Assembly (NCBI GenBank): GCA_019637915.1
Contig: JAHBUV010000001.1
Coordinates: forward strand, 2,016,565-2,080,564
Length of the DNA: 64,000 nucleotides
Reading direction: 5' to 3'
Source: Pseudobdellovibrionaceae bacterium
GTDB taxonomy: Bacteria > Bdellovibrionota > Bdellovibrionia > Bdellovibrionales > Bdellovibrionaceae
Under the pieces are notes generated by a model, which did not search any database, was not told the DNA's origin, and saw nothing but the letters and a program-made list of their open reading frames with translations. Positions 8,415 to 56,220 of this stretch are shown here, piece after piece; positions within the stretch are counted from its first letter, which is position 1, and each line of letters opens with the position of its first letter. The position numbers were made by a program, and so were the translations under genes.

Positions 8415-9404
8415 TCAGATCGAAGATTTTTTCTCAAGGGCTTGATTGAGCTTCGCTCGGTCAAGCTCTTGCCATTTCAGCTCCCCGCAGGATTTTTTCG
8501 CGTAACCGAACCACAGGTCGCGGCCCGGTGGGGCGATTCGCGAAGAGAGTTCGCTTAAGTTCTGGATCTTCTTCAAGATGAATTGCGACACGAGCCGCCG
8601 CTGCTCTTCGGAGGCCGCTTCCGGCTTCAGGACGGGCACGCGGCCGGCGATGCGGGCGCGGATCAGGGGCTCTTCCCTGCGGGCTTTTTCCAGGGCCTCG
8701 ATCTCGGCCGTGACGTTGCGGATGCTTTCGTAGTCCATGCGGATCTCGATGGGCACGGCGTCCTCTTCCCTTTCCCTGGTGGCGGTGCGGGTGTTCATGG
8801 GCTTCGGCATCATGGCGCCGAGCAATCCGCCGAGGACGGAGGTGAAGGAGGGGCCTTCGGCGCATTTCGCCTCGTGGGCCTCGCGGTGCTGGCGCAGGAT
8901 TTCCTTGTGGAGATCCAATTTCTTTTTCAGGCGGTCGATCTCGCCCTGCAGTTCCTGGGGTTTTTCAAGAAGGGCGCTCTTCACGGTCATCCGGGAGCCC
9001 AGGAGGCGGGCCGTCGTTTTGTCATAAGGCATATCCAGGAAAACTTCATCGCCGTTGGGCAGGACGAGGCGCCGTCGCTGGGGGACGAGGCGTTCTTGTT
9101 CCCGCTGACCCGCCGGTTTTTCCACGGAAATCGTTTCATTTTCAATTTGGTCGACCTGCAGGGAGGCCACCCGCAGACCGTCCGGCCCCGAGACCACCGC
9201 GCGGAAATCGTCCAGGGGAAAGACCACGGCGGCGATGTCCTCGGTCTTCCGGTCGAGCACGGCATAGGGGGGCAGGGCCTCGGCGCGCAGTCCGGCGCGG
9301 CGTTCGATGTGCTCAAGCGCCGTCAGGCAATCGAAGAATTTCGCATCTTCTGTTTTCGCGAAGGCCGGGGCGGTTAAAAAAGAGAGAAAGATTTCCAGGA
9401 CCAT
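8415..9404 (-). CDS. exported protein of unknown function
   Basis: A 329-residue protein with a short signal peptide ('MVLEIFLSFLTAPAFA'). The middle contains a charged predicted coiled coil (around 'EIDRLKKKLDLHKEILRQHREAHEAKC'-type sequence, residues ~145-180) and a helical C-terminal part. Tail-to-tail with clpX with only 6 nt between stops, so no shared terminator is visible. Family not recognised. Confidence 0.65.
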   Translation of the reverse strand: MVLEIFLSFLTAPAFAKTEDAKFFDCLTALEHIERRAGLRAEALPPYAVLDRKTEDIAAVVFPLDDFRAVVSGPDGLRVASLQVDQIENETISVEKPAGQREQERLVPQRRRLVLPNGDEVFLDMPYDKTTARLLGSRMTVKSALLEKPQELQGEIDRLKKKLDLHKEILRQHREAHEAKCAEGPSFTSVLGGLLGAMMPKPMNTRTATREREEDAVPIEIRMDYESIRNVTAEIEALEKARREEPLIRARIAGRVPVLKPEAASEEQRRLVSQFILKKIQNLSELSSRIAPPGRDLWFGYAKKSCGELKWQELDRAKLNQALEKKSSI

Positions 9405-16714: not shown

Positions 16715-17566
16715 ATGCATTTCCCTTTCACCGGCGAGCCCTACAAACCGCAAATGGGTCTTTTCCCCCTCGATCTGAACGATTGGATCGAGGTGGACGA
16801 GCATCAGGCCTCACGCCTGGAGCGCAAACGGGAATTGCTGCAAAAAGAACGCGATACGGTTTTGCGGATCCTGCCCGAGTCCCACGAGGCCGTGCTGGAG
16901 CTGCGGCGAATCCTGCGCGGTCATTTGCTGGCGGTTCATCCGGATCATTACTCGGAAAGCGACGCCGGCTTTTTGGTGAAGGACACGGGCCGGGTTTTTC
17001 CCGAGCCGGACTCGGCGCCGGAAGCCCTGGAGCAGATCGCGCAGTGGACTCAGGAGGACTGGTGCGTGCTGTCACCGCGCCCTCCGGTGAGGCTGATCGC
17101 GGGGGCCGTTTGTTTCCCCTCGCGCTGGTCCCTGAAGGACAAGATCGGCCGGGACTCCGACGCCATCCACGGGCCGGTGCCGAAATTCAAGGAAAGCATC
17201 GGGCGGCCCACGGCGGGTTTTCTGGAGCGCATGAGCGTGGACAAACCCATGTGGCGGCTCAATTGGACCATTCATGACTCCGATGAGCTTTTTTGCCCGG
17301 GCCCCCATCCGGGGCGGACCGATCTCACGGAGTCCAATGTCCTGGAGCACACTTTCCTGAGGATGGAACGCCAAACCCTGAGGCGCCTGCCCGGAACCCA
17401 GGCCGTGGTCTTTTCGATCCGCAACCACGTCCATCCCCTGAAAGAGGTCTTGAAAGACCCGGAACGCCGACGTTTGCTCAAGGAAAGCCTTCTGGGGTTG
17501 CCCGAAGAAACGGCTGATTACAAGGGGATGCGCCACTTCTTCGGTCTGCTGAAAAAGGCCCTTTAA
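16715..17566 (+). CDS. DUF3445 / haem-dependent oxidative N-demethylase-like protein
   Basis: 283 aa. The opening 'FTGEPYKPQMGLFPLDLNDWIEVD' and central 'VCFPSRWSLKDKIGRDSDAIHGPVP' are hallmarks of DUF3445, now described as the haem-dependent oxidative N-demethylase family (known members remove methyl groups from small amines using haem). The 'LNWTIHDSDELF' and 'RMERQTLRRLP' motifs further match the family. ATG 16715 lacks an obvious ribosome site. It is a single gene between a terminator and a tRNA, so its substrate is not suggested by context. Confidence 0.8.
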   Translation: MHFPFTGEPYKPQMGLFPLDLNDWIEVDEHQASRLERKRELLQKERDTVLRILPESHEAVLELRRILRGHLLAVHPDHYSESDAGFLVKDTGRVFPEPDSAPEALEQIAQWTQEDWCVLSPRPPVRLIAGAVCFPSRWSLKDKIGRDSDAIHGPVPKFKESIGRPTAGFLERMSVDKPMWRLNWTIHDSDELFCPGPHPGRTDLTESNVLEHTFLRMERQTLRRLPGTQAVVFSIRNHVHPLKEVLKDPERRRLLKESLLGLPEETADYKGMRHFFGLLKKAL

Positions 17567-43009: not shown

Positions 43010-43360
<351 letters not shown>

Positions 43361-43379
43361 ATTTTCTGGACGAAATTTC

Positions 43380-43480
43380 GTCCGCAGTTCGTCCACCAGC
43401 TCAAATAAAAAACGGGCTGGTGGCAAAATCTGCTTGTGCGTCTGATGTTGCTCCGCCTGTTGAGTCGGCGGGAGTCGAAC
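43380..43480. repeat. structured direct repeat A, just downstream of tmRNA
   Basis: About 101 nt matching repeat B at 53027-53126 from GTCCGCAG to GGAGTCGAAC, with shared blocks such as TCTGCTTGTGCGTCTG. It contains a hairpin CCACCAGC/GCTGGTGG (43393-43400 with 43416-43423) and a second imperfect one near 43451-43473. Between tmRNA and the repeat lies a 16-bp palindrome GGACGAAATTTCGTCC (43368-43383). See repeat B for the comparison. Confidence 0.8.
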
Positions 43481-43498: not shown

Positions 43499-45988
43499 CT
43501 ACCTAGAAGAGAATCTCTTTCGTAAAATGAAGAGTATCGCGATCGCGGCCGCCACCGTGCCGAATACTTTTAACCAATCCAGGCCGTGCAGGGGCGTTAA
43601 ATGAAGTGGACCTGCCAGCCACTTAACTTGGATGAGCAATACGGAGCAGAGGAGCGATGCGGCCGCGATGATATTCGCCGGTCGAGACTTTCCCTTGGTT
43701 AAAAAAACGGCAAGACCCGCGCTCCAAAGAGCCAGAAGGGCCATTATCTTCGCTCGCCCATGATTGGCGTCAGAGTTTTCCGAAAGACCCGTCACGAAAG
43801 AGGTGATGAGCGCGGTCGTTACGGCCAATCCGACCAGTAAAACAAGTAGAGCATCCCTCTTATCGAAAAAAGAAACTCGCCGCTCGGGCGCACCGTCGTT
43901 CTCGGAAGTGGCTGCCTGCTGGAATGCGAACAGCGCCGTCGGATGAATGATTAACTCTAACCAAACAACGTGCGCCGGAAGATATAGGAGCGGGTAGCCC
44001 AATAGAGGAACAAGAGCCGCCGACAGCACGAATGGAATATGAAACAGCAAAAGATACTCGAAGCTCAAACGGAGATTCGAGAAAAGCTGACGGCCCTCTC
44101 GAATCGCGTTCACGATCGTGCTGAAATTGTCGTCGCTCAAGATTATGGAAGAAACTTCTTTTGCACTCCTCGTCCCTCTGACCCCCATCGCGATCCCAAT
44201 GTCCGCAGCCTTGAGAGCCGGAACATCGTTCACGCCGTCTCCCGTAACGGCGACGATCTCGCCGGATGACTTTAGAGCTTCGACGACCCGAAGTTTTTGA
44301 ATGGGATTGCAGCGCGCAATAACATCCGCACCCCGGAGGAATTCGGGGTTTGCCTTGAGCCAATCCGCCTCAAACTTTTCAGGATCAGCTTCCGCTGAGA
44401 TCACGATGGGCTGCCCACTTCCCAGCCCGACATCTTTTGCGATTGCAGCTGCCGTTTGAGGGTGATCGCCGGTAATCATCAAAACTTTGATTCCATTTTT
44501 CCCGCAATACTCGATCGCAGGGCGAACCTCGGGGCGCGCCGGGTCTTCGAAAGCTAGAAGACCCGCGAACTGAAACCCGGAGTCCGGCTCTTTTCCGTCT
44601 CGCAGCTCAGCTGCCGACACTTCGCGATTTCCGACGGCTAAAAGCTTATGCCCCTCCCGCGCCCAATTCGAAGTTCGGTCTAGCCACTTATTTTTCTCCT
44701 CGCTCGAAAGTGCCGATTTCGACAAGATCGTTTCCGGCGAGCCTTTCATTGCGCAAAATGCGCTGCCTTGATTTTCGTAGAAGGCTGTTTCCCTCTTACG
44801 GTCTTCAGTGAACGGAATCACGCTCGTCCGCAGCGGAATTTTTAGGTCTCTTTCCCCTGATAAGGCAAAAATCGCCTGGTCAACTGGATCAGTGCCTTCA
44901 TGGTTCGATGCCGCGCCAGCGTGGGAAAGGACTTCTGATTCCGAGAATGGGCTAGCCGCATCGACATGGGTTAGTTTGAGCTGGCCAGCCGTAATCGTGC
45001 CAGTTTTATCGGTACAGATTCGAGTGATTCGCCCGATATTCTCGACGGAAACCGCGCGCCGAACTAATGCTCCTCGTTTCGCCAGCCGGTAAACGCCGAC
45101 ACCGAGGAAGAACGAAAAGACGACAGGAAACTCCTCCGGCATTGCGGCCACTGCGAGAGTCGCGGCACTTAGAAGCGCATCCAGCCAACCGTGCCCCTGA
45201 TAAACTCTGATTAAGGCGAGAATCAGGCAGAATGCGGCCGCGGCGTAGATGAGCCTTTTGGTTAACTTCGCGATTGAGTGCTGAAGGGCAGTCCGTTCGT
45301 GAGCGATCGTGGAGACCGACTGCACGATTTCGCCATAGGAGGTATTTTTTCCCGTGAACAAAATGCGGAGGAGTCCGCTTCCAGTAAGGATCCGCGTTCC
45401 GGCAAAGCCCAGCGACTGGGAATCGACGAGTACCTCTTGTGCGGATCGAAAAGCATCGAAAGGAATTGTTCTTTTGGTGATCGGAAACGCTTCTCCCGTC
45501 AGCACCGACTCGTCCACCTGGAGCGAATCTACGCTTTCCCAGAATCCATCCGCAGGTAGAAAATGCTCCTCTGAATTCAGAACAACCAAGTCTCCCGGAA
45601 CGATATCGTGCGAATCAATGCGCAGGCGTTCTCCGTCGCGGATGACCAAAGCATCCGCAGCTAATTGTCCCTTGAGTGAAGCGGTCGATGCCTGCGTTCT
45701 CCAGTGGAGAAATGCATCCATGAAAAGCAATGGAATGGTCGCCAAGAAAAGAATGATCGCCTCTTGGCGATCACCTACAAGAAAGAACGCCGTGCCGATA
45801 CCAATCAGGAACCAGATCATCGGGTCCTTGATAGTATCCACGAAAAGCTCAAGCCATGGGTTGCCGGTGCGTTCAATGATCGCGTTCGCTCCGAAGCGTG
45901 AACGCTGAGAGGTAACCTCAGCAGCGCTCAGGCCGGTGGCTCTGCCATTTAGCCCGCTTAGAGTTTCAAGGGAGATTTTCTTTTTCAC
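43499..45988 (-). CDS. cation-translocating P-type ATPase of unknown specificity
   Basis: 829 aa, type II layout: N-terminal cation-ATPase domain, TM1-4, phosphorylation motif 'ICTDKTGTIT', 'MKGSPET' nucleotide-binding motif, hinge 'TGDGVNDVPALK', then six C-terminal TM helices. Departures: the actuator loop is TGEA instead of TGES, the TM4 motif is 'MPEEFP' instead of PEGLP, and the TM6 region reads 'WLELIIHPTAL', lacking the canonical N-x-x-D Ca-binding pair. So it is neither a standard Ca nor a standard Na/K pump. GTG start overlaps the stop of the LuxR-like regulator gene. Confidence 0.85.
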   Translation of the reverse strand: MKKKISLETLSGLNGRATGLSAAEVTSQRSRFGANAIIERTGNPWLELFVDTIKDPMIWFLIGIGTAFFLVGDRQEAIILFLATIPLLFMDAFLHWRTQASTASLKGQLAADALVIRDGERLRIDSHDIVPGDLVVLNSEEHFLPADGFWESVDSLQVDESVLTGEAFPITKRTIPFDAFRSAQEVLVDSQSLGFAGTRILTGSGLLRILFTGKNTSYGEIVQSVSTIAHERTALQHSIAKLTKRLIYAAAAFCLILALIRVYQGHGWLDALLSAATLAVAAMPEEFPVVFSFFLGVGVYRLAKRGALVRRAVSVENIGRITRICTDKTGTITAGQLKLTHVDAASPFSESEVLSHAGAASNHEGTDPVDQAIFALSGERDLKIPLRTSVIPFTEDRKRETAFYENQGSAFCAMKGSPETILSKSALSSEEKNKWLDRTSNWAREGHKLLAVGNREVSAAELRDGKEPDSGFQFAGLLAFEDPARPEVRPAIEYCGKNGIKVLMITGDHPQTAAAIAKDVGLGSGQPIVISAEADPEKFEADWLKANPEFLRGADVIARCNPIQKLRVVEALKSSGEIVAVTGDGVNDVPALKAADIGIAMGVRGTRSAKEVSSIILSDDNFSTIVNAIREGRQLFSNLRLSFEYLLLFHIPFVLSAALVPLLGYPLLYLPAHVVWLELIIHPTALFAFQQAATSENDGAPERRVSFFDKRDALLVLLVGLAVTTALITSFVTGLSENSDANHGRAKIMALLALWSAGLAVFLTKGKSRPANIIAAASLLCSVLLIQVKWLAGPLHLTPLHGLDWLKVFGTVAAAIAILFILRKRFSSR

Positions 45989-46506
45989 GACTCTCTCTCT
46001 TCGCTAGGACCCAATAGATCTTCCAGGAAAAATGCCGCGAGTTCCGACCGGCCGGATAAGTTCGACTTCTCGTAGATGGCCGTGGACTGCGCCCGCGAGG
46101 TCTTTTCTGATGTCTTTCGGATCTCCGCGATCTCTTTAAGGCTCAATCCTTTCAAGAGAAGAAATGCGACTTCTTTCTCAGACGATGTGAGCTTCCACGA
46201 GACCAGCTGCCTTTCGATTTCTTGGGAGAGGCCTTCAATGTAGACTCTGGCTTGTTGTCGCCACTGTTCGGCCTCTGCTTGGAGGCCGCTCGACTTGAGG
46301 ACTTCCGCAGCCAAGGATCGCTTCAGTGCGAACGAGCCTCGCAGCAGGAAAACGACGCCCGCGAGCGCGGCCAGCGCAACGAACCCTTCCGAAGCCAGAT
46401 GCCACCAAGGAGCGCCCTCACTGGAGTCAGTGATCAAGTCCGTTCCGACAAAGATGGCGGTTCCCGTGAGGATGGCTATTATAACCCAGCGTTCTCGGTT
46501 TTTCAT
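45985..46506 (-). CDS. membrane-anchored LuxR/GerE-type regulator
   Basis: 173 aa. Two TM helices at the N-terminus ('WVIIAILTGTAIFVGTDLI', 'LASEGFVALAALAGVVFLLRG'), a helical linker of ~50 residues, then a LuxR-type HTH: 'LTSSEKEVAFLLLKGLSLKEIAEIRKTSEKTSRAQSTAIYEKSNLSGRSELAAFFLEDLL'-like region, with the recognition helix around TSEKTSRAQ. No receiver or ligand domain is present. It is coupled to the P-type ATPase (GTGA overlap) and follows the cytochrome b561 gene by 12 nt. A frameshifted second copy lies at 55077-55614. Confidence 0.8.
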   Translation of the reverse strand: MKNRERWVIIAILTGTAIFVGTDLITDSSEGAPWWHLASEGFVALAALAGVVFLLRGSFALKRSLAAEVLKSSGLQAEAEQWRQQARVYIEGLSQEIERQLVSWKLTSSEKEVAFLLLKGLSLKEIAEIRKTSEKTSRAQSTAIYEKSNLSGRSELAAFFLEDLLGPSEERES

Positions 46507-46518
46507 GCAGCCACCTTT

Positions 46519-47259
46519 CTAATCGTCGTTATCCTCGTGCTCGGCACCTGCCTTTGTGGTTCCCTGATGGTCCGCGGACTCGCTCTCTCCGAGCTGGAGC
46601 TCTATACCAAAGACACTGGTCGTTGCCTGGGTGGCATCGTAGTTCTTATAGATGTGAAACGCAAATAGGCCAATGATTCCCATCATTCCCATAGCAACCC
46701 ATCGGTGGGAGCTCGCTATCGGTGACGCGCCCTCTTCGTTGTCTTTCTTTCCATTGATCATGCTGAGAGCGATTCCATCTCGGTGACGAAGGCCATGCAG
46801 AACGACGCCCGCAACGTGCCCAACCGCGACAAAAGCGAAGGCGTTTGCCATCAGCTCATGCATGTCTTCAAAAGCCTCTTTTTGACCAGCCGCCATTAAG
46901 TAGCCAGTTATACCTAGCCCAAGCGCGAGACCAAGCATCGTGACCGCCGCCCAGGCTGATGCTGGATTATGCGCGAAGTACATTCGCCCTTTCGTGCTTA
47001 AGATCTCGCGAAAGTACTCGATTAGCCGCAAGGGGTTCAGTGGGAACGATGAAAAGCGGGCGTAACGAGATCCAATTATTCCCCAGATTATGCGAAGTGT
47101 TGTTGCGACGAACAGAATTAGTCCGAGCAGCATGTGCTGAGAAAACCAGGATGATTCGTCATCGATCAGCTTTGCGATCGCAAAGGCAGCGATGAAAAGT
47201 CCAGCAAACAGCCAGTGAAAGAGTCTTGTAGGTAGATCGTAAACTTTTGCTTTGTCCAT
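46519..47259 (-). CDS. cytochrome b561-family membrane protein
   Basis: 246 aa. 'YDLPTRLFHWLFAGLFIAAFAIAK' opens the first TM with a haem-ligand His, 'FSQHMLLGLILFVATTLRIIWG' is TM2, 'MHELMANAFAFVAVGHVAGVVLHGLRHRDGIALSMI' TM4 with two or more His; this is the Ni/Fe-hydrogenase-type cytochrome b pattern. An extra C-terminal TM and an acidic tail ending 'EHEDNDD' are unusual. GGGAGG precedes ATG 47259. Head of the operon with the LuxR-like gene and the P-type ATPase. Confidence 0.87.
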   Translation of the reverse strand: MDKAKVYDLPTRLFHWLFAGLFIAAFAIAKLIDDESSWFSQHMLLGLILFVATTLRIIWGIIGSRYARFSSFPLNPLRLIEYFREILSTKGRMYFAHNPASAWAAVTMLGLALGLGITGYLMAAGQKEAFEDMHELMANAFAFVAVGHVAGVVLHGLRHRDGIALSMINGKKDNEEGASPIASSHRWVAMGMMGIIGLFAFHIYKNYDATQATTSVFGIELQLGESESADHQGTTKAGAEHEDNDD

Positions 47260-47436
47260 GGGGCCTCCCTTTAGATGTCTTAATAATGGGTCTGACCCAT
47301 GGTTTTGGCTATGGGGCAAATGCCCAATGATCAGTAAAAACAATGGCTTAAGGCTTATGCCCAATGGCCAAATCGAGCCTTCGGAAGCATCTTTGGTGAA
47401 AGGGCAACGGTGCCCCAATCAACCAAGGAGTGTTCT

Positions 47437-47697
47437 ATGAGAATCGCAACAATACTGACCGCCCTGCCGCTTTTGCTGAGTGCTCCGGCATTCGCCAAAA
47501 AGTCCTGCACGGATGAGCCCAAATCCAAGTGGATGACTGAGGAGGCCTTCAAGAAGAAGGTCACGGACGAGGGTTATAAGATCAGAAAGTTCAAACAACC
47601 TGGCTCGTGCTACGAAATCTACGGAACTGACAAAGACGGAAACGATGTCGAGATCTATTTCAATCCCGTGGACGGGAGCATCGTGACGAAAAAGTGA
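47437..47697 (+). CDS. exported PepSY-domain protein
   Basis: 86 aa. Signal peptide 'MRIATILTALPLLLSAPAFA', then a single PepSY_2-like domain ('MTEEAFKKKVTDEGYKIRKFKQPGSCYEIYGTDKDGNDVEIYFNP'). Such small PepSY proteins often sit next to cytochrome b genes. Two Cys could form a disulfide. Divergent from the cytochrome b561 operon. A piece of its 3' end is duplicated at 50297. Confidence 0.85.
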   Translation: MRIATILTALPLLLSAPAFAKKSCTDEPKSKWMTEEAFKKKVTDEGYKIRKFKQPGSCYEIYGTDKDGNDVEIYFNPVDGSIVTKK

Positions 47698-47705
47698 AAT
47701 CGAAT

Positions 47706-47727
47706 GCGGGGGGCCGTGGCCCCCCGC
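47706..47727. terminator. GC-rich hairpin after the PepSY gene
   Basis: GCGGGGGGCC and GGCCCCCCGC form a perfect 10-bp inverted repeat separated by GT. There is no T tract, so termination activity is uncertain. Confidence 0.45.
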
Positions 47728-47753
47728 CGCCCATCTCCTGAGGAGCGAGCAGT

Positions 47754-47936
47754 ATGCTGATAGCAATTTTTTTGGGTGTGTTTGGAATCTGGGTAGCTTT
47801 TCTGACCGCGATTCAGGTTTCTCTTGAAGGGGGTTGGAAACGCAAGAGAGGGGGCGAAGCGCCTCGTGTTCAAGTGAACCCCTCTGTTAAGCAGGTCTTC
47901 AGAGATCTTTGGAAGGAGATCTTGAAAGGGGCGTAA
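47754..47936 (+). CDS. small single-TM protein
   Basis: 60 aa: one N-terminal TM ('MLIAIFLGVFGIWVAFLTAI'), then a basic stretch and a cytosolic amphipathic helix ('VKQVFRDLWKEILKG'). GAGGAG lies upstream of ATG 47754. Probably in one transcript with the PepSY gene. It may be a small accessory subunit of the adjacent cytochromes; inference only. Confidence 0.55.
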   Translation: MLIAIFLGVFGIWVAFLTAIQVSLEGGWKRKRGGEAPRVQVNPSVKQVFRDLWKEILKGA

Positions 47937-47956
47937 GGCATCAGGCAAGGCGCCGC

Positions 47957-48610
47957 TTAATCTTCAGATTTTCCGCCGTGGATCATATCTGAAATGATCC
48001 CCTGATCCTTGCAATTTTCCGCAATTACGATTCCGATGATATGACCAGCAATAAAGACGACAAAGAACCACATCATGAATTCATGAATACTCTTAATTGT
48101 ACCGCCAAAGTCACTTGATAACCCGATTTCTGTTTTGAAAGTCATCAGAATGCCCGTAACAACCATTAGCATCGTCACGATATAGAAAACTGCGTATCCG
48201 ATCTTAACAAAAGCGAAATGGAGTGCCTCACCTCGTTCCTGAATCGGAATGCGTTTGATGCCCAGGGCGCTCTTTATGGCGGAAACGCTTGGGAACTGTC
48301 TTTCAATAAATAGTGCGATCAGCACTCTTGCTAGCAATAGAGCGCTTAGAATGTATCCCAAGTAAATATGCCATTCCCATAAAGGGTTACGGATGGCAAC
48401 AGCGATTTCCTTCGCCAATCCGGGAGTAATCTGGATTCCAGCCGCCCCTAATTTTTCTTCAATCAAAACGGAATTTATGCGCCAACTCAGGAATGTCTTT
48501 CTAATGAGTACGGTTGCCAGGAGTGCCAAGATCACTACAAAATTTGACCAGTGCCAGAGCCGAAGACAGAGGGGTTGGTATTTCTTGAAACTGAATTTTG
48601 AAACTGTCAT
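47957..48610 (-). CDS. cytochrome b561-like membrane protein
   Basis: 217 aa with four TM helices and paired His: 'LCLRLWHWSNFVVILALLATVLI' (TM1), 'LWEWHIYLGYILSALLLARVL' (TM2), 'LHFAFVKIGYAVFYIVTMLMVVTG' (TM3), 'IHEFMMWFFVVFIAGHIIGIVIAE' (TM4). Cytochrome b/b6-type electron carrier, distinct from the b561 at 46519. More AT-rich than its neighbours and single in its direction. Confidence 0.85.
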   Translation of the reverse strand: MTVSKFSFKKYQPLCLRLWHWSNFVVILALLATVLIRKTFLSWRINSVLIEEKLGAAGIQITPGLAKEIAVAIRNPLWEWHIYLGYILSALLLARVLIALFIERQFPSVSAIKSALGIKRIPIQERGEALHFAFVKIGYAVFYIVTMLMVVTGILMTFKTEIGLSSDFGGTIKSIHEFMMWFFVVFIAGHIIGIVIAENCKDQGIISDMIHGGKSED

Positions 48611-48664
48611 GAGCTAAGATCCTCTCTTTGCCGCGAGCGCGGAGCATACCAATATTAAAGCAGT

Positions 48665-50038
48665 TTAGTGCAGATGAAATTCCTGCCCATGTTCAGGGAC
48701 TAAGGCTCGCAGACCCAGCTCCTCTTCGATGCGATGGCGAAGGGCATCGGCCGCTTCCGGCTCGCCATGGGTTACGATAACTCTCTTCGGCTTGCGCTTC
48801 AAGGCCGAAATCCATTTAAGAATCCCGTCCGCATCCGCGTGGGCCGAAAACGTCTCGAGATTTACGAGCTCCGCCCTTATCGGCCAATACTGGCCGTGGA
48901 TCTTAACCTGTTCCGCTCCGCGCACCATGAGGTCTCCGCGAGTTCCCCCCGCCTGAAATCCCACGAACAGGATCGTGTTTTTCGGGTCCGGCGCAATCGA
49001 TTTCAAGTGATGGAGAACTCTTCCGCCCGTGGCCATACCGCTCGCCGCGATAATAACCGCAGGCTCGGTTCTGGCGTTTAGCGCTTTGGATTCCTCTGGA
49101 GTGCCCACGACTCGAACGGATTTCCAGAGGGAGTTCAGCTCCGCCTCGCTGATTTTCAGCTCATCCATATGTGCCGCGAAGGCTTTGTTTGCCTCTGCGG
49201 CCATGGGGCTATTGAGATAAACCGGCAAGTCGCGCGGGATCTGTCCCGCTTCTTTCAGGCGATGGACGTAGTAGAGAATGAGTTGCGCGCGGCCGACGGC
49301 AAACGATGGGATCAAGACGATTCCTTTCCGTTGAATCGTGCGAGTGATGATCTCCCTCAGCTCTTCTTGCGGATCGCGATCGGGATGTTTTCTATTTCCA
49401 TAAGTGGATTCGACAACGAGTTCGTCGGCGGCGTTCGGAATTTCGGGATCGCGAACCATCGGATCATTACTGCGACCCAGGTCGCCCGAGAAGATGATTG
49501 AGCCCCCTTCTGTCTTTACGCGAACGCTCGCCGCCCCCAACAAATGCCCGGCAGGAAAGAACTGAAACTCGAAAGTGCCGAGACCACCTTTTGAGACTTG
49601 AGTGACCGCCCCCCAAGGAACGGCCTTAAAATACTTCAGCGACTCCTTTGCATCGCTCATCGTATAGAGCGGAAGAGCGGGATGATGCTTGGAAAAGCCT
49701 CGAAGATTGGCGAACCTCGCCTCCTCCTCCTGAAGGAAGCCAGAATCCGGAAGCATGATTTCGCAAAGATCCACCGTAGGCGGCGTGGTATAGATCGGTC
49801 CTCGATATCCGTTCTTCACCAGGAGCGGAACGTAGCCGCTGTGGTCGATATGGGCATGGGTCAGGATGACAGCATCGAGTTTTTCAAGGTCGACAGGGAA
49901 TGGGTCCCGGTTCTTCAAACGAAGATTCTTGAATCCCTGGAACAGCCCGCAGTCGAGTAAAATCTTTGTCTCACCGTGCGAGAGAAGATAGCGGGAGCCG
50001 GTGACAGTGCCCGAAGCCCCGAGAAACTGAATTTTCAT
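48665..50038 (-). CDS. MBL-fold beta-CASP RNA-processing nuclease-like protein
   Basis: 457 aa. Metallo-beta-lactamase core 'LTHAHIDHSGYVPLL' (HxHxDH), 'AGHLLGAASV', 'FSGDLGR', then beta-CASP motifs including 'PSFAVGRAQ', 'IIAASGMATGGRVLHHL' and 'FSAHADADGIL', with 'VTHGEPEAADAL' at the end. These proteins (CPSF73/YsbA-like) are Zn-dependent RNases or uncharacterised hydrolases. AAGGAG precedes ATG 50038. Confidence 0.92.
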   Translation of the reverse strand: MKIQFLGASGTVTGSRYLLSHGETKILLDCGLFQGFKNLRLKNRDPFPVDLEKLDAVILTHAHIDHSGYVPLLVKNGYRGPIYTTPPTVDLCEIMLPDSGFLQEEEARFANLRGFSKHHPALPLYTMSDAKESLKYFKAVPWGAVTQVSKGGLGTFEFQFFPAGHLLGAASVRVKTEGGSIIFSGDLGRSNDPMVRDPEIPNAADELVVESTYGNRKHPDRDPQEELREIITRTIQRKGIVLIPSFAVGRAQLILYYVHRLKEAGQIPRDLPVYLNSPMAAEANKAFAAHMDELKISEAELNSLWKSVRVVGTPEESKALNARTEPAVIIAASGMATGGRVLHHLKSIAPDPKNTILFVGFQAGGTRGDLMVRGAEQVKIHGQYWPIRAELVNLETFSAHADADGILKWISALKRKPKRVIVTHGEPEAADALRHRIEEELGLRALVPEHGQEFHLH

Positions 50039-50420
50039 GTCGCTCCTTGGCTGAAAACTAAGTTTTTACCATAGCACAAGAGCTGAAGTTGTCGCTCCGC
50101 TCGCGGCTAAGCAAGAGTGCCTCGAATTTGATGCCCGTCCTCTCTGATTCCGATTTCCTAGATCGAGTTGCGAAAGTTGCTCTTGCGTGCTGGCGCTCCG
50201 AGGTCAAAGTCGTAAACAGCTTGGAATATTGGCTATTTTGTGGCGCGGCTTGCTAAAATTGCCGCGCCGGACTATCAACGGATCTGCTTTTGGGAGGACA
50301 AAGACGGAAATGATGTCGAGATCTATTTCAATCCCGTGGACGGGAGCATCGTGACGAAAAAGTGAAATCGAATGCGGGGGGCATACCCCCCCCCGCCATT
50401 CTCTTGAGGGAGCGATAAGA
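50039..50420. other. gene-poor stretch with a hairpin and a PepSY fragment
   Basis: No intact gene is seen. It holds a perfect hairpin GGCGCGGC/GCCGCGCC (50242-50249 with 50261-50268) and the duplicated 3' end of the PepSY gene described separately. Confidence 0.6.
50297..50365 (+). pseudogene. duplicated 3' fragment of the PepSY gene
   Basis: From 50297 to about 50383 the sequence repeats 47629-47715 with very few changes, including the last 22 codons (ending 'PVDGSIVTKK'), the TGA and the start of the downstream GC-rich hairpin. No signal peptide or start is present, so it is a remnant of a local duplication or recombination. Confidence 0.9.
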
Positions 50421-50888
50421 TCAATGGGCAAGCGGCTGCCAACCAGGATGGTCAAAATATTTCGGGTAGAGCTGAAGAGCATCGATAATTTTAATTGCTC
50501 CTGCCCGGCGGTCTTGAATCGATTTGGCGCTTTTCATCTGCTGATTCCCACCTAGAATCTGCGACAGAACCAAGTGAAGCTGCGCATCGGCTTTCGGGCT
50601 GAGCTTGCAGTTTTTGAAAATGGAATTCGTATGGGTGGAGATCTTCTCAGAGAGCTCGGCGTATCGAGGCTTCTTCAGCTTGCCGGCATGAATTTCGCCG
50701 AGCTTTGACGCCATGTCATCTCTGATTCCGGCCATGCCCTTCCTCAAGGGCGCATCCGTCTCCCATTTTTTTCCGGAATCCAGTTGTAGCGCAACGCCGC
50801 CGTGGGCGTTGTGACCGTGTTTTTCCTCAGCAAGCAGCGGGAACGAAGTCGTCACCATAAATACCAAAGCGAACAAAGATTTTTTCAT
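50421..50888 (-). CDS. exported helical protein of unknown function
   Basis: 155 aa. Signal peptide ('MKKSLFALVFMVTTSFPLLA'), a His-rich N-terminus of the mature protein ('EEKHGHNAHGG') that may bind metal, and a four-helix-like body with one Cys ('FKNCKLSPKADAQLHLVL'). The helical plan resembles cytochrome-c'-like or metal-resistance periplasmic proteins, but no CxxCH is present. GAGGT is upstream of ATG 50888. Confidence 0.65.
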   Translation of the reverse strand: MKKSLFALVFMVTTSFPLLAEEKHGHNAHGGVALQLDSGKKWETDAPLRKGMAGIRDDMASKLGEIHAGKLKKPRYAELSEKISTHTNSIFKNCKLSPKADAQLHLVLSQILGGNQQMKSAKSIQDRRAGAIKIIDALQLYPKYFDHPGWQPLAH

Positions 50889-50906
50889 AAGATACCTCAA
50901 TGTTTT

Positions 50907-51344
50907 TCAATCATTCGCGGAGAGATCAATTTTGAGCTGCACTTCGGTTTTCAACGCATTCGAAATGATGCAATATTTTTTGGCTGACTGGAGGAGCGTA
51001 CGAAGCTTCTCCATGTCAGCTGTAGAAGTATTAAGCGAAACATCCAGCTCAATCCCTGTGAAGACAATTCCCGCAGTGCTCTTATCCAGGTAACCACGAA
51101 TCGTAGAGCGGTAGCTCGTGAACTCGACGCCCTGCCGGCGCGTAAGAGATCGAAGGGTTGTGAAATAACAAAGCTCAACCGCGCCCAAGAGGAGAGTTTC
51201 GGGGCTCCAGACGCCGCCCGGTCCGTCGAAGTGCGGCGGAGGCCCTCCGCGAAGTGAGGGCTCGCTTTCGCCTTTCAGGGTGGCCAGCGACCCTTCGGCC
51301 TGATCAAGCTCGACTTTGTACTCGTGTGGAAAAGGAAAAGGCAT
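50907..51344 (-). CDS. OsmC/Ohr family protein
   Basis: 145 aa. 'GGVWSPETLLLGAVELCYFTTLRSLTRRQGVEF' carries the first family Cys, and 'AKKYCIISNAL' the second, i.e. the two redox Cys of the OsmC peroxidase family (reduce organic hydroperoxides, some act on persulfides). AGGAGA precedes ATG 51344. Follows the rhodanese gene by 9 nt in one operon with the ArsR-type regulator. Confidence 0.88.
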   Translation of the reverse strand: MPFPFPHEYKVELDQAEGSLATLKGESEPSLRGGPPPHFDGPGGVWSPETLLLGAVELCYFTTLRSLTRRQGVEFTSYRSTIRGYLDKSTAGIVFTGIELDVSLNTSTADMEKLRTLLQSAKKYCIISNALKTEVQLKIDLSAND

Positions 51345-51353
51345 GGGATTCTC

Positions 51354-51905
51354 CTATTGGTTATCGCAACGGCCAGAGGCCGGGCTGACTACACACATTT
51401 CTTTGGAGAGTGCCGGCTGAGCCTTATTCCAAGGCATGCGGGCGAGGAGCTCCGCCATTCCGCAGAAGCCGGTAGCGCCCGCGACGACGAGCCCGCCTCC
51501 CACGAACGCCGAAAGCAGAATGAAATTCAGGCTTACAAAATAACCGAGTAACGCTCCCAGCAAAACGATACCGCCTGCGATGAGCTGAACTTGCCGCAGA
51601 ATGGGAAGATGGACTTTCTGGGTTGCGACCGTAGGGTTGCCCTGACTTTTCCATTCCAGAATCCCACCCTTGAAGACTTCGATCCGAACTCCCTCACAGA
51701 AAGCCTCGGCCTGCTGAGCGGCTAGACCCGCGCGCTTGCCGCTCCGGCACATGAGGACGACCGGCTGACCGCGAAGAGTTTTTAAGATCGCTGGAGCTTG
51801 CTTGCCAAAGGCGGAAAGCGGGATATGGATCGAGCTTTCGATGTGCTCGGCCTCGAATTCGTCTTTCTCTCTTACGTCAATGATAACCGGATTTACTGGA
51901 TTCAT
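51354..51905 (-). CDS. rhodanese-DUF2892 membrane protein
   Basis: 183 aa. N-terminal rhodanese domain ('VIIDVREKDEFEAEHI') with the active-site loop 'CRSGKRA', then a DUF2892/YgaP-like membrane part with two TM helices ('QLIAGGIVLLGALLGYFVSLNFILLSAFVGGGLVVAGATGFCGM'-type region, residues ~113-155). Resembles E. coli YgaP, a membrane sulfurtransferase. ATG overlaps the stop of the ArsR-family gene (ATGA). Confidence 0.9.
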   Translation of the reverse strand: MNPVNPVIIDVREKDEFEAEHIESSIHIPLSAFGKQAPAILKTLRGQPVVLMCRSGKRAGLAAQQAEAFCEGVRIEVFKGGILEWKSQGNPTVATQKVHLPILRQVQLIAGGIVLLGALLGYFVSLNFILLSAFVGGGLVVAGATGFCGMAELLARMPWNKAQPALSKEMCVVSPASGRCDNQ

Positions 51906-52249
51906 AAAGGCTTGCTCCTTTTTGAAACTGAGGCGCTAACTTTGGTGCAGAAAACGTTGTGCAACGACCGCATCAGTTTCAGCACCCTCGGGTCTTGAAT
52001 CGCATAGCGGACGAACTTGCCGTCACGGCAGGAGGACACGAGTCCCTCCGCCTTCATGCGCTGAAGAAACTGCGAAAGCTGGGATTGCGAGGCGCCGCAA
52101 AGCTCCTCAAGATCGCTCACCGTCTTCTCTCCCATCGAGAGATGGCAGAGCACCTGAAGTCTTTGTGGGTGAGCAAGCAATTTAAGCAGATGCGCGACCT
52201 CGTCACATTGCTCAAGCATGGGATTAGCGTGTGAGTAGCTCGTTTTCAT
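51902..52249 (-). CDS. ArsR-family regulator of the BigR/YgaV/SqrR type
   Basis: 115 aa winged-helix repressor: 'LLKLLAHPQRLQVLCHLSMGEKTVSDLEELCGASQSQLSQFLQRMKAEGLVSSCRDGKFVRYAI'-type core. Cys35 ('VLCHL') and Cys101 ('LHNVFC') line up with the two persulfide/redox-sensing Cys of YgaV, BigR and SqrR; three extra Cys (15, 51, 74) are present. It probably represses the rhodanese-OsmC operon and itself. The start at 52249 lies inside the operator-like palindrome; ATG 52219 (Met11) is an alternative. Confidence 0.88.
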   Translation of the reverse strand: MKTSYSHANPMLEQCDEVAHLLKLLAHPQRLQVLCHLSMGEKTVSDLEELCGASQSQLSQFLQRMKAEGLVSSCRDGKFVRYAIQDPRVLKLMRSLHNVFCTKVSASVSKRSKPL

Positions 52250-52327: not shown

Positions 52328-52498
52328 TTAGTCCGTCAGGGGTAGCTGCATAGCGCGGCCCCACTTGGACGATTGCGAGTCTTTGATCAGCTGAATTTGT
52401 GCCGCTCGAAGCATGTGATTAAGGCGCGGAAGCTGGCCCACCGCTGCGACTATTAGTACGACGATTAGAGCTGCTTCAACTAGTTTGCGGAATACCAT
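52328..52498 (-). CDS. small single-TM protein next to the recombinase remnant (56 aa)
   Basis: ATG 52498 has GAGGAGG 6 nt upstream, an unusually strong site for such a short frame. The peptide begins with a TM helix ('LVEAALIVVLIVAAVGQL'), then a cytosolic amphipathic part ('MLRAAQIQLIKDSQSSKWGRA'). It starts 10 nt after the recombinase frame, so the two look co-transcribed. No family recognised. Confidence 0.65.
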   Translation of the reverse strand: MVFRKLVEAALIVVLIVAAVGQLPRLNHMLRAAQIQLIKDSQSSKWGRAMQLPLTD

Positions 52499-52508
52499 TT
52501 GAACCTCC

Positions 52509-52949
52509 TCAGGTTTTGGCTGTTGTTTGTTGATGACGTTTGATAACGGCGTTGACGGAGCTGTGAAACCATTGCTTACCCATTCGAGTAGGGATGTTCT
52601 GTTGATTCAAGAGGTCGGCTATGAGTCTGGCGCTTTTCCCGTTCTGCCAAAGCCGCAGGATTTTTTGGACTACGCGGTACTCTTTCGGGTCCACAACGAG
52701 TTTGCCATCAAGCCAGTCGTAGCCGTAGGGGAGGACCGGAGGCCGCATTTGCTTAGACCGCGATGCTTTCTTCTTCGGACATTTGACCGCCCGCCTAAGT
52801 GTGTAGCCACGGGACGTGAGCGCCTCGCGGATGGAGGTTTTGGCGAAACCCGTTTTTGCTTCTATCTCGCGTAACGAGCATCCAGCGCGGTAAAGCGGCT
52901 CGCAAGCCTCGAAAATATGCTCTTTAGATTTCGGAGAAAATCGAATAAT
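52509..52949 (-). pseudogene. serine-recombinase C-terminal part (HTH plus Recombinase domain), no canonical start
   Basis: The frame encodes an HTH-like segment ('CSLREIEAKTGFAKTSIREAL'), a Lys-rich linker, and a Recombinase-domain match ('LPYGYDWLDGKLVVDPKEYRVV', 'LLNQQNIPTRMGKQW'). The N-terminal resolvase catalytic domain with its nucleophile Ser is missing. The frame is open up to a TAA at 53010-53012, but no ATG, GTG or TTG starts it before the conserved part; ATT at 52949 is the only plausible site, so it is probably decayed. It sits just inside repeat B. Confidence 0.7.
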
Positions 52950-53026
52950 ATCGTGGGGTACGGGGGTGACCTGCGCTTGTGCGTCTGTCCTCGCGCCGAC
53001 GCCACCATTTTATCAGACGCATTTAC

Positions 53027-53126
53027 GTCCGCAGTTTGTCCGTCAGCTCCAAATTAGAAGGAGCTGGCGGCGGTTTCTGCTTGTGCGTCTGTTGTTGCTC
53101 CGTTAACGAGACGGAGGGAGTCGAAC
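53027..53126. repeat. structured direct repeat B
   Basis: Copy of repeat A (43380-43480), 100 nt. The same hairpin is present, here 11 bp: 53040-53050 with 53060-53070, one G-U. Relative to A, one A-T pair is replaced by G-C and the loop differs, so pairing is kept while sequence drifts. A weaker match continues upstream (52993-53026), resembling the tmRNA 3' end (CCACCA-TTTT). The block GCTTGTGCGTCTG also occurs a third time at 52975-52987. Confidence 0.8.
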
Positions 53127-55076: not shown

Positions 55077-55614
55077 TTAGAGATTCTCTTTTTCAAGTTC
55101 CATTCTGGCCTCGCTAGGCCCCAAAAGATCTTCCAGGAAAAATGCCGCGAGTTCCGAGCGGCCAGATAGGCCCGACTTCTCGTAGATGGCTGTAGACTGC
55201 GCGCGCGGTCTTTTCTGATGTCTTTCGGATCTCCGCGATCTCTTTGAGGCTCAATCCTTTCAAGAGAAGAAAGGCGACTTCTTTCTCGGAGATCGTCAGT
55301 TTCCAAGACGTCAGTTGCCTTTCGATTTCTTGGGAGAGGCCTTCAATGTGGACTCGGGCTTGTTTTCGCCACTGTTCGGCCTCTGCTTGGAGGCCGCTCG
55401 ACTTGAGAACTTCCGCAGCCAAGGATCGCTTCAGTGCGAATGAGCCTCGAAGTAGAAAAGCGACGCCCGCGAGCGCCGCTAGGGCAACAAATCCTTCCGC
55501 AGCCAAATGCCACCAATGGACGCCTTCACTGGAGTCGGCGAATAGGTCTGTTCCGACAAAGATGGCGGTTCCCAGGAGGATCGCTATTATGACCCAGCGT
55601 TCTCGGTTGTTCAT
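55077..55614 (-). pseudogene. frameshifted second copy of the membrane LuxR-type regulator
   Basis: Very close to the gene at 45985-46506 through the TM helices, linker and first half of the HTH. Then one base is missing in the stretch GCGCGCGGTCTTTT near 55200-55210 compared with the intact copy, which shifts the frame in the recognition helix; the downstream sequence still matches the other frame up to a TAA at 55077. Two bases could be restored by programmed slippage, but simple decay is more likely. Confidence 0.88.
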
Positions 55615-55626
55615 TCGGGCGCCTTT

Positions 55627-56220
55627 CTAGTCGTCATCGTCTTCGTGCTCGGCGCCTTCCTTTGCGTTTCCGTGTTTTTCCGCGGACTCATTCTCTCCAA
55701 GTTGGAGTTTCACACCAAAGACACTGGTCGTTGCCTGAGCGGCATCGTAGTTCTTATAGATGTGAAAGGCAAATAGGCCAATGATTCCCGCCATTCCCAA
55801 AGCAACCAATCTGTGAGACCTCGCGATCGGTGACGCCCCCTCTTTGTTTTCTTTCATTCCGTGAATCATACTGAGGGCGATTCCATCTCGGTGACGAAGG
55901 CTGTGAAGAACGACGCCTGCAATGTGCGCAACCGCGACAAAAGCGAAGGCGTTTGCCATCAGCTCATGGATGTCTTCAAAAACCTCTTTTTGGCCGGACG
56001 CCATGAGGTAGCCGGTGGCGCCAAGCCCGAGCGCGAGACCAATCATTACGACCGCCGCCCAGGCTGAGGCTGGGTTGTGTGCGAAGTACGTTCGCCCTTT
56101 CGTGCTTAATATTTCGCGGAAGTACTCGATCAGCCGCAAGGGGTTCAGTGGGAACGATGAAAAACGGGCATAGCGAGATCCGATGATTCCCCAAACAACA
56201 CGAAGCAGCGTTGTGACGAA
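55627..56220 (-). pseudogene. 5'-truncated second copy of the cytochrome b561 gene
   Basis: Matches the gene at 46519-47259 from about residue 50 to the end, including the acidic tail ('EHEDDDD'). The similarity stops abruptly near 56220, so the first TM helix with one haem ligand and the start codon are lost. It lies 12 nt from the LuxR-type pseudogene, exactly as in the intact operon. Confidence 0.9.

Follow-up and report, generated by a model that had tools for sequence, protein, structure and literature searches.

The startless recombinase frame beside a small membrane protein gene at a Pseudobdellovibrionaceae ssrA island is very probably the tail of a large serine recombinase gene that splits on integration

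In the archaeal "suicidal" integrases of the SSV1/pTN3/pT26-2 type, the attP site lies inside the integrase gene, which is thereby split into an int(N) and an int(C) part that remain as stubs, and a rescue of such stubs by an incoming element has been proposed, as described in the available text of PMC8371274. In the accessible parts of the literature, the self-splitting of integrases is described as exclusive to archaea, and the targeting of tRNA genes is not known from serine integrases. A bacterial integrase said to extend across attP is that of the myxophage Mx8, according to an extract of the Islander paper of 2014 (PMC4383910). The available text of an integrase-mining paper from 2026 contains nothing on split serine integrases (PMC12884075), and that of a paper on a Bacteriovorax strain from 2025 mentions isolated integrase-like ORFs only (PMC12642874). 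A search of titles and the beginnings of abstracts, with subscription papers mostly outside its reach, did not identify an earlier description of a serine integrase of the present kind, whether split or directed at tRNA genes.

The stretch of DNA analysed here, hereafter the window, has a length of 64,000 nucleotides and contains a frame of 166 codons on the minus strand (52512..53009, with the stop codon TGA at 52509-52511) that we refer to as int(C), for the C-terminal piece of a large serine recombinase (LSR) with a split gene. It is open through the att core described below and has no start codon. It contains the Recombinase DNA-binding domain that is expected of an LSR (PF07508, E=5e-9, residues 92-142 of the 150 amino acids given to the profile search), and the Resolvase catalytic domain was not found in it by the same search. 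Since the Resolvase domain is absent from this frame and present in the unsplit homologs and in the int(N) parts, what the window contains is not an LSR but an LSR fragment. The helix-turn-helix (HTH) domain at the N-terminal end is weak by profile (HTH_58, E=0.03) and clear in the AlphaFold2 model, which was built with 18 homologs as input (mean pLDDT 83.7, pTM 0.48). The modelled protein consists of two DNA-binding domains, a three-helix HTH at residues 13-50 (helices 13-25, 30-37, and 41-50), located at 52812..52925 on the minus strand from the model helices and the alignment of homologs, and a second, recombinase-domain-like DNA-binding domain at residues 81-149, located at 52515..52721 on the minus strand from PF07508, the model, and Foldseek. 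The best neighbours of the model in PDB are serine integrase complexes, with Foldseek probabilities of 0.99-1.00 and no E-value below 0.001, and the tight matches have a local rmsd of 1.4-2.3 Å over 61-76 columns. The HTH also gives a weak NCBIfam match, at E=2e-5 and well short of the cut-off, to the CRISPR repeat-binding protein Cbp1, and this match recurs in the recombinase of locus L118.

The int(C) frame is followed after a gap of 10 nt by an ORF of 56 codons on the same strand (52328..52498), which encodes a protein with a single transmembrane (TM) segment and has the Shine-Dalgarno (SD) sequence GGAGG 5 nt ahead of its ATG at 52498. The protein gave zero matches to NCBIfam or PHROG at E<=0.1 and to viral contigs, and a sub-threshold match only to Pfam. 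Our guess is that it has a role in the direction or timing of the recombination. A first-pass annotation of this DNA had described a frame that lacks both a resolvase domain and a normal start and is followed closely by a tiny membrane protein gene with a strong ribosome site, and all of these features were confirmed. No in-frame ATG, GTG, or TTG is present between the att core and the HTH in the window, and no promoter-like site was found upstream of the frame.

The frame and its 56-amino-acid membrane neighbour recur as a pair across the Bdellovibrionota. In a set of 196 relatives, the int(C) frame was matched in 88 genomes (E<=0.001) and the small protein in 61 (E<=0.1). An ORF of at least 40 amino acids starts at most 90 nt downstream of the frame at 29 of the 31 loci examined. 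Among the listed search matches alone, a small-protein match follows directly downstream of 57 of the 150 frame matches, and a frame match directly precedes 57 of the 118 small-protein matches. These counts depend on a single 56-amino-acid query, which does not find every copy, and ordinary recombinase domains may account for some of the 150 matches to the frame. The genome of the window contains a second pair of frame and small gene, and the small gene occurs there a third time on its own. A scan of named-species genomes with the small protein identified 37 loci, 35 of which carry labels of the Bdellovibrionota type and two of which are labelled "Proteobacteria" and "Lysobacteraceae". Many of the genomes of the relatives are metagenome assemblies, where contig ends hide some of the sites. 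The unpaired small membrane gene, at G000:C1:1805610-1805759 (L005, L007), is located near tRNA-Ser and serS, and no int(C) match accompanies it.

Mobile elements of other kinds were also considered. A phage or plasmid origin was rejected because the phage and plasmid collections gave partial matches only, mostly to integrase or recombinase genes; no record held 80% of the query in one place, and the matches listed were at most 44% identical. The ends of an IS or transposon were rejected as well, as an all-against-all comparison of ORFs of at least 70 amino acids from 23 stretches identified no shared transposase, and the int(C) cluster, present in 18 of the 23 stretches, was the sole cluster found in more than four.

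A mutual comparison of the neighbourhoods of the pairs revealed large serine recombinases adjoining the small gene. Two of these are uninterrupted, one in G029:C100 with an open frame of 771 codons and another in G005:C46 (L118) with an open frame of 784 codons (782 amino acids from the first start codon), and in both the C-terminal end is formed by this HTH domain and the small TM gene comes directly after. The latter contains the Resolvase, Recombinase, and Zn_ribbon_recom domains within residues 35-398 and the HTH at residues 636-681. With the readable part of the G029:C100 enzyme as query, such LSRs were identified in 72 of the 196 genomes (E<=1e-20), and many of the matches are frames of 550-630 codons that end before the C-terminal part. 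The domains of these int(N) parts are Resolvase, Recombinase, and Zn_ribbon_recom. The best NCBIfam matches of the LSR are CcrB and XisF, both below the curated cut-offs, and in PHROG it matches the family 95 integrase. The first-pass annotation had suggested a protein search for the pair in other genomes, and had named homologs that always have an upstream resolvase domain and no adjacent small protein as the observation that would speak against its reading. The pair does recur without an adjacent upstream resolvase domain; the first half of that observation applies to the intact form, which has such a domain upstream, and the second half does not, the membrane gene following the whole genes too.

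The position at which the genes are interrupted coincides with the ends of tRNA and tmRNA genes. A tRNA gene is located near the end of the recombinase match at 18 of the first 30 of these LSR loci. Among the 26 int(N) loci with an int(C) or a small gene on the same contig, a tRNA or tmRNA gene was detected at 23 (21 tRNA and 2 tmRNA), and at all 23 the int(N) frame extends, in antisense, into the 3' end of that RNA gene. The 3' end of such genes is the target of self-splitting integrases, and the window has its site at ssrA. In most of the elements for which both ends were found, int(N) is found next to the tRNA, at the island end opposite to int(C). If the insertion of a circle opens one gene at an internal site, the C part should lie upstream of the N part on the same strand, and in a comparison of the nearest C or TM gene with the N part on one contig (<80 kb), all 35 pairs are on the same strand, with the C part upstream in 29. 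The six pairs with the N part upstream are two unsplit genes, one tandem neighbour, and three pairs at distances of 10-63 kb that are unexplained.

The core that is common to both halves has a length of 6-26 nt and is located where the RNA gene ends in CCA. With a strict definition of the core, which has to contain at least 5 nt of the tRNA terminus, two of the 27 pairs have no core, and rejoining the N and C parts at the core yields a continuous frame with a read-through of 79-195 amino acids in 24 of the other 25 and one that is out of frame, where one third would be expected in phase by chance; with a looser definition, used in a first run, 22 of the 27 pairs are in frame. The int(C) frames are open through the core at 28 of 30 loci; of two copies without int(N) (hereafter N-less), the frame at L049 is not, and that at L048 has a stop between the core and the HTH. 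The att core is consequently placed within the coding frame of the integrase, as in the self-splitting systems. The distance from the core to the HTH is 97-112 nt at 28 of the 30 loci, and 54 and 62 nt at the other two. At 24 of the 30 loci there is no in-frame ATG, GTG, or TTG between the core and the HTH, and an SD-like site was found in this interval at none of the 30, so that no locus has the start with an SD-like site that a stand-alone DNA-binding gene would have. The int(C) frame represents the final part of a gene rather than a gene in its own right. Two candidate starts were dropped. For the TGGTGG motif, a start by frame shift or at ATG-GTG is out because the motif, which is the tRNA-end core, lies in all three phases relative to int(C) among the 30 loci, and the ATT at 52949, raised in the first-pass annotation, need not be a start, the codons that precede it (x-P-H-D) varying, on inspection, mostly synonymously among the loci examined. 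In the window's own genome, a split element of ~40 kb at G000:C1:2612645-2652934 (L006, L116) contains both halves, with int(N) at tRNA-Pro(TGG) and in-frame rejoining.

In the window, the putative integration target is the tmRNA gene ssrA, identified with ARAGORN at 43010..43360 on the plus strand. Its last six bases, CCACCA (43355..43360, plus strand; TGGTGG on the minus strand), represent the att core at the tmRNA 3' end, and the distal core TGGTGG is located at 53002..53007 (minus strand), in the first codons of the open int(C) frame, which gives a unit of 9647 nt from core to core. The neighbouring repeats to which the first-pass annotation referred are real: a direct repeat of 112 nt (75%) is present at 43344-43455 and 52991-53102, and a 19-nt repeat extends it to about 137 nt, so that it covers both ends of the island. 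A segment here called the B segment was recognized from the repeats and the alignment at 43361..43480, where it contains a hairpin, the exact arm GCTTGTGCGTCTG (43432-43444), and an inverted T-arm-like sequence, GGGAGTCGAAC, and in a second copy outside the distal core at 53008..53126. The arm repeat CAGACGCACAAGC is also present inside the start of int(C) (52975..52987, minus strand), with copies at 53079-53091 and 43432-43444; it is exact in all three copies, and matches with at most two mismatches are not rarer than in shuffled sequences. With its hairpin, arm repeat, and inverted T-arm-like end, the B segment resembles one half of an att site in the opposite polarity. A B-segment-like stretch after the core at the ssrA end is also present in G024, G039, and G007.

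The cargo region as a whole (43499..52249) contains genes from the ORF list that are all on the minus strand and were named by reading the sequence rather than by profile searches: a P-type ATPase against the ssrA side (43499-45988), a LuxR-like regulator (45985-46506), a cytochrome b561-like protein (46519-47418), an MBL-fold protein (48665-50038), an OsmC-like protein (50907-51344), a rhodanese (51354-51905), and an ArsR-like protein (51902-52249). None of the ORFs in the window island is an int(N). A direct repeat of 97 nt, 94% identical, at 47629-47725 and 50297-50393 covers the end of a small gene. The ssrA island in G007 is 86% identical to the window island at the nucleotide level over 4.6 kb; no int(N) was seen in it, and no LSR match at E<=1e-20 lies on its contig. 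Since the P-type ATPases of the window and G007 are 90% identical in amino acid sequence, as compared to 68% for the seryl-tRNA synthetase (SerS), the cargo with the ATPase is probably shared by transfer and not by descent, as judged from these sequence identities. The history of the window island itself we infer from its relatives. Beyond the distal core, the window contains second copies of the LuxR-like and cytochrome b561-like genes (55114-56139) that are 91% identical over 146 amino acids and 88% over 170 amino acids to the genes in the G007 island, and perhaps represent an older unit.

In G062:C137, the same cargo was identified together with int(C) and the small gene, and without int(N), in a unit that extends from a core at 8850 to a core at 16836. 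The same unit is present in G015:C9, from a different genus, with 8001 nt shared at 99.5-99.8% identity, and it is ~92% alike in G114, from another family. The edges of the G062/G015 unit are at TGGTGG, the flanks in G062 and G015 are unrelated immediately past the short core on both sides, and no resolvase signature was found in the stretches from G062, G015, and G114. Because a near-identical unit of 8 kb with both edges at the core is found in two genera, the N-less units seem to be mobile as cassettes. Between related N-less copies (L045/L046, L048, and the L066 copy), the dN/dS ratio of int(C) is 0.07-0.08 at dS values of 0.34-0.39, as for L045/L046 versus L048, which have the same cargo (dN 0.024, dS 0.34), and over all pairs that are at least 87% identical it is 0.07-0.21. 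The ratio for the small TM protein is 0.05-0.32 between related copies, where finite. These substitution patterns indicate that the N-less units are under purifying selection. The coupling of the two genes is thus not simple decay, as the first-pass annotation had argued, given that the pair recurs in relatives and that both partners have low dN/dS ratios. A frame that has no start and is conserved as a protein would most simply be kept by occasional completion with an arriving int(N).

Tandem arrays are found in three genomes. The uninterrupted gene in G005:C46 is located about 24 kb from an int(N) whose stretch holds tRNA-Met, and in G029:C100 the uninterrupted gene is followed at a distance of 12 kb by an int(C), the two junctions both having the sequence AAAATTGGTAG. 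G058:C1 contains a fusion of an int(C) with a partial int(N), which is flanked by more copies of int(C) in one direction and by an int(N) at tRNA-Gln in the other. Such arrays would be expected if a second element integrated at the far core of the resident.

Taken together, the window frame is very probably the int(C) of an LSR whose gene splits on integration at its internal att core. The predicted order in the circular element is LSR(N)-core-LSR(C)-membrane protein. The core would recombine with the last bases (the CCA end) of a tRNA or tmRNA gene, presumably by the action of the LSR, and the LSR gene would be split in the process. In the integrated state, the int(N) frame abuts the 3' end of the tRNA gene and is convergent to it, and int(C) with the TM gene faces inward from the far end of the island, without a start codon. 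The integration of a second element at the far core would place its int(N) before the resident int(C) and restore the full LSR frame, an arrangement that is seen in the three tandem arrays, in one of them with a partial int(N) only, and for which the order of events is presumed. The window unit is a unit at ssrA with int(C), the TM gene, and cargo, and without int(N); such units are kept in frame by selection and seem to have moved between genera with core-to-core edges, probably via an LSR acting in trans. As a tentative extension, it is possible that there is a cassette system at ssrA, in which cargo units with an attachment tail consisting of int(C) and the TM gene, and no catalytic part, depend on an enzyme acting in trans for their movement. 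The resident tail would be docked by the int(N) of an arriving element and would contribute the DNA-binding half of a chimeric recombinase, and selection for docking would keep the tails intact although they have neither a catalytic part nor a start.

The pair in the window might alternatively be an inert relic, the leftover end of an island that lost its int(N) and survives, idle, by its youth. The absence of int(N) from the island and of a start codon are in line with this, as is G039:C1, a genome of 3.0 Mb in one contig with three int(C) matches and zero LSR matches at E<=1e-20. However, the N-less int(C) frames with the same cargo in L045/L046 and L048 are conserved as proteins, the N-less units hold exact core edges that are common to different genera, and stops are present in just 6 of the 150 listed int(C) matches, which makes an idle relic rather unlikely. 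The near identity of the 8-kb unit in two genera is also what recent uptake would give if N-less units were spread not by an LSR but by homologous recombination between the repeats at the ssrA end after DNA uptake, and repeats of 112-137 nt flank the window unit. Long flanking homology would, however, not yield flanks that are unrelated right past a short core, as those of G062 and G015 are, and we consider this route improbable.

The first-pass annotation had itself suggested a possible domesticated module, namely that the pair is translated into a catalytically dead DNA-binding protein and a membrane partner that act at the adjacent repeats. The wide recurrence of the pair, the low dN/dS ratios of both partners, the strong SD sequence of the TM gene, and the location of the arm repeats where a DNA-binding protein could act would all agree with such a module. 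But the interval from the core to the HTH mostly lacks an in-frame start and always an SD-like site, the window frame has no promoter-like site upstream, and the frame runs through the core into the LSR in the whole genes (L118 and G029) as well as in the 24 rejoined pairs. The domesticated module is thus unsupported and very improbable, the frame being the C-terminal piece of an LSR.

If the LSR gene is split on integration, as we propose, a process known so far from archaea and from another enzyme class would here be carried out by a bacterial serine recombinase. Because gene finders would show at most a truncated "recombinase" and a short hypothetical peptide for int(C) and the TM gene, islands of this kind in predatory bacteria are easily overlooked. 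They also provide natural chimeras of the N and C parts of recombinases. A set of LSRs with highly conserved targets, the tRNA ends, bears on how the choice of target is encoded in these enzymes, and the splitting of the gene bears on how integration becomes one-way.

The archaeal suicidal integrases resemble the system in the Bdellovibrionota in that the att site is located in the integrase gene, which is split at integration and leaves stubs. However, they are tyrosine recombinases, whereas the enzyme described here is a serine recombinase and bacterial. The catalytic part is in int(C) in the archaeal enzymes, but in int(N), in the form of the serine Resolvase domain, in the Bdellovibrionota, which therefore do not have the catalytic int(C) of a tyrosine recombinase that defines the SSV type. 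The small TM gene after int(C) is a further feature that distinguishes the Bdellovibrionota from the archaeal systems. The Mx8 integrase is also of the tyrosine family, unlike the Bdellovibrionota LSR. The other LSRs (phage integrases such as Bxb1, LI, and SPbeta YokA; the SCC recombinases CcrA/B/C; XisF) share the order of Resolvase, Recombinase, and Zn ribbon domains in int(N), but the Bdellovibrionota LSR differs from these by an extra C-terminal HTH and a second recombinase-like domain past the att core, by its tRNA or tmRNA target, and by the split of its gene on integration. Finally, the N-less units are similar to integron gene cassettes in being discrete cargo units with exact edges that occur in tandem and have no catalytic gene of their own, but they are kilobases long, each contains a C-terminal piece of an integrase and a TM gene, and their site is ssrA.
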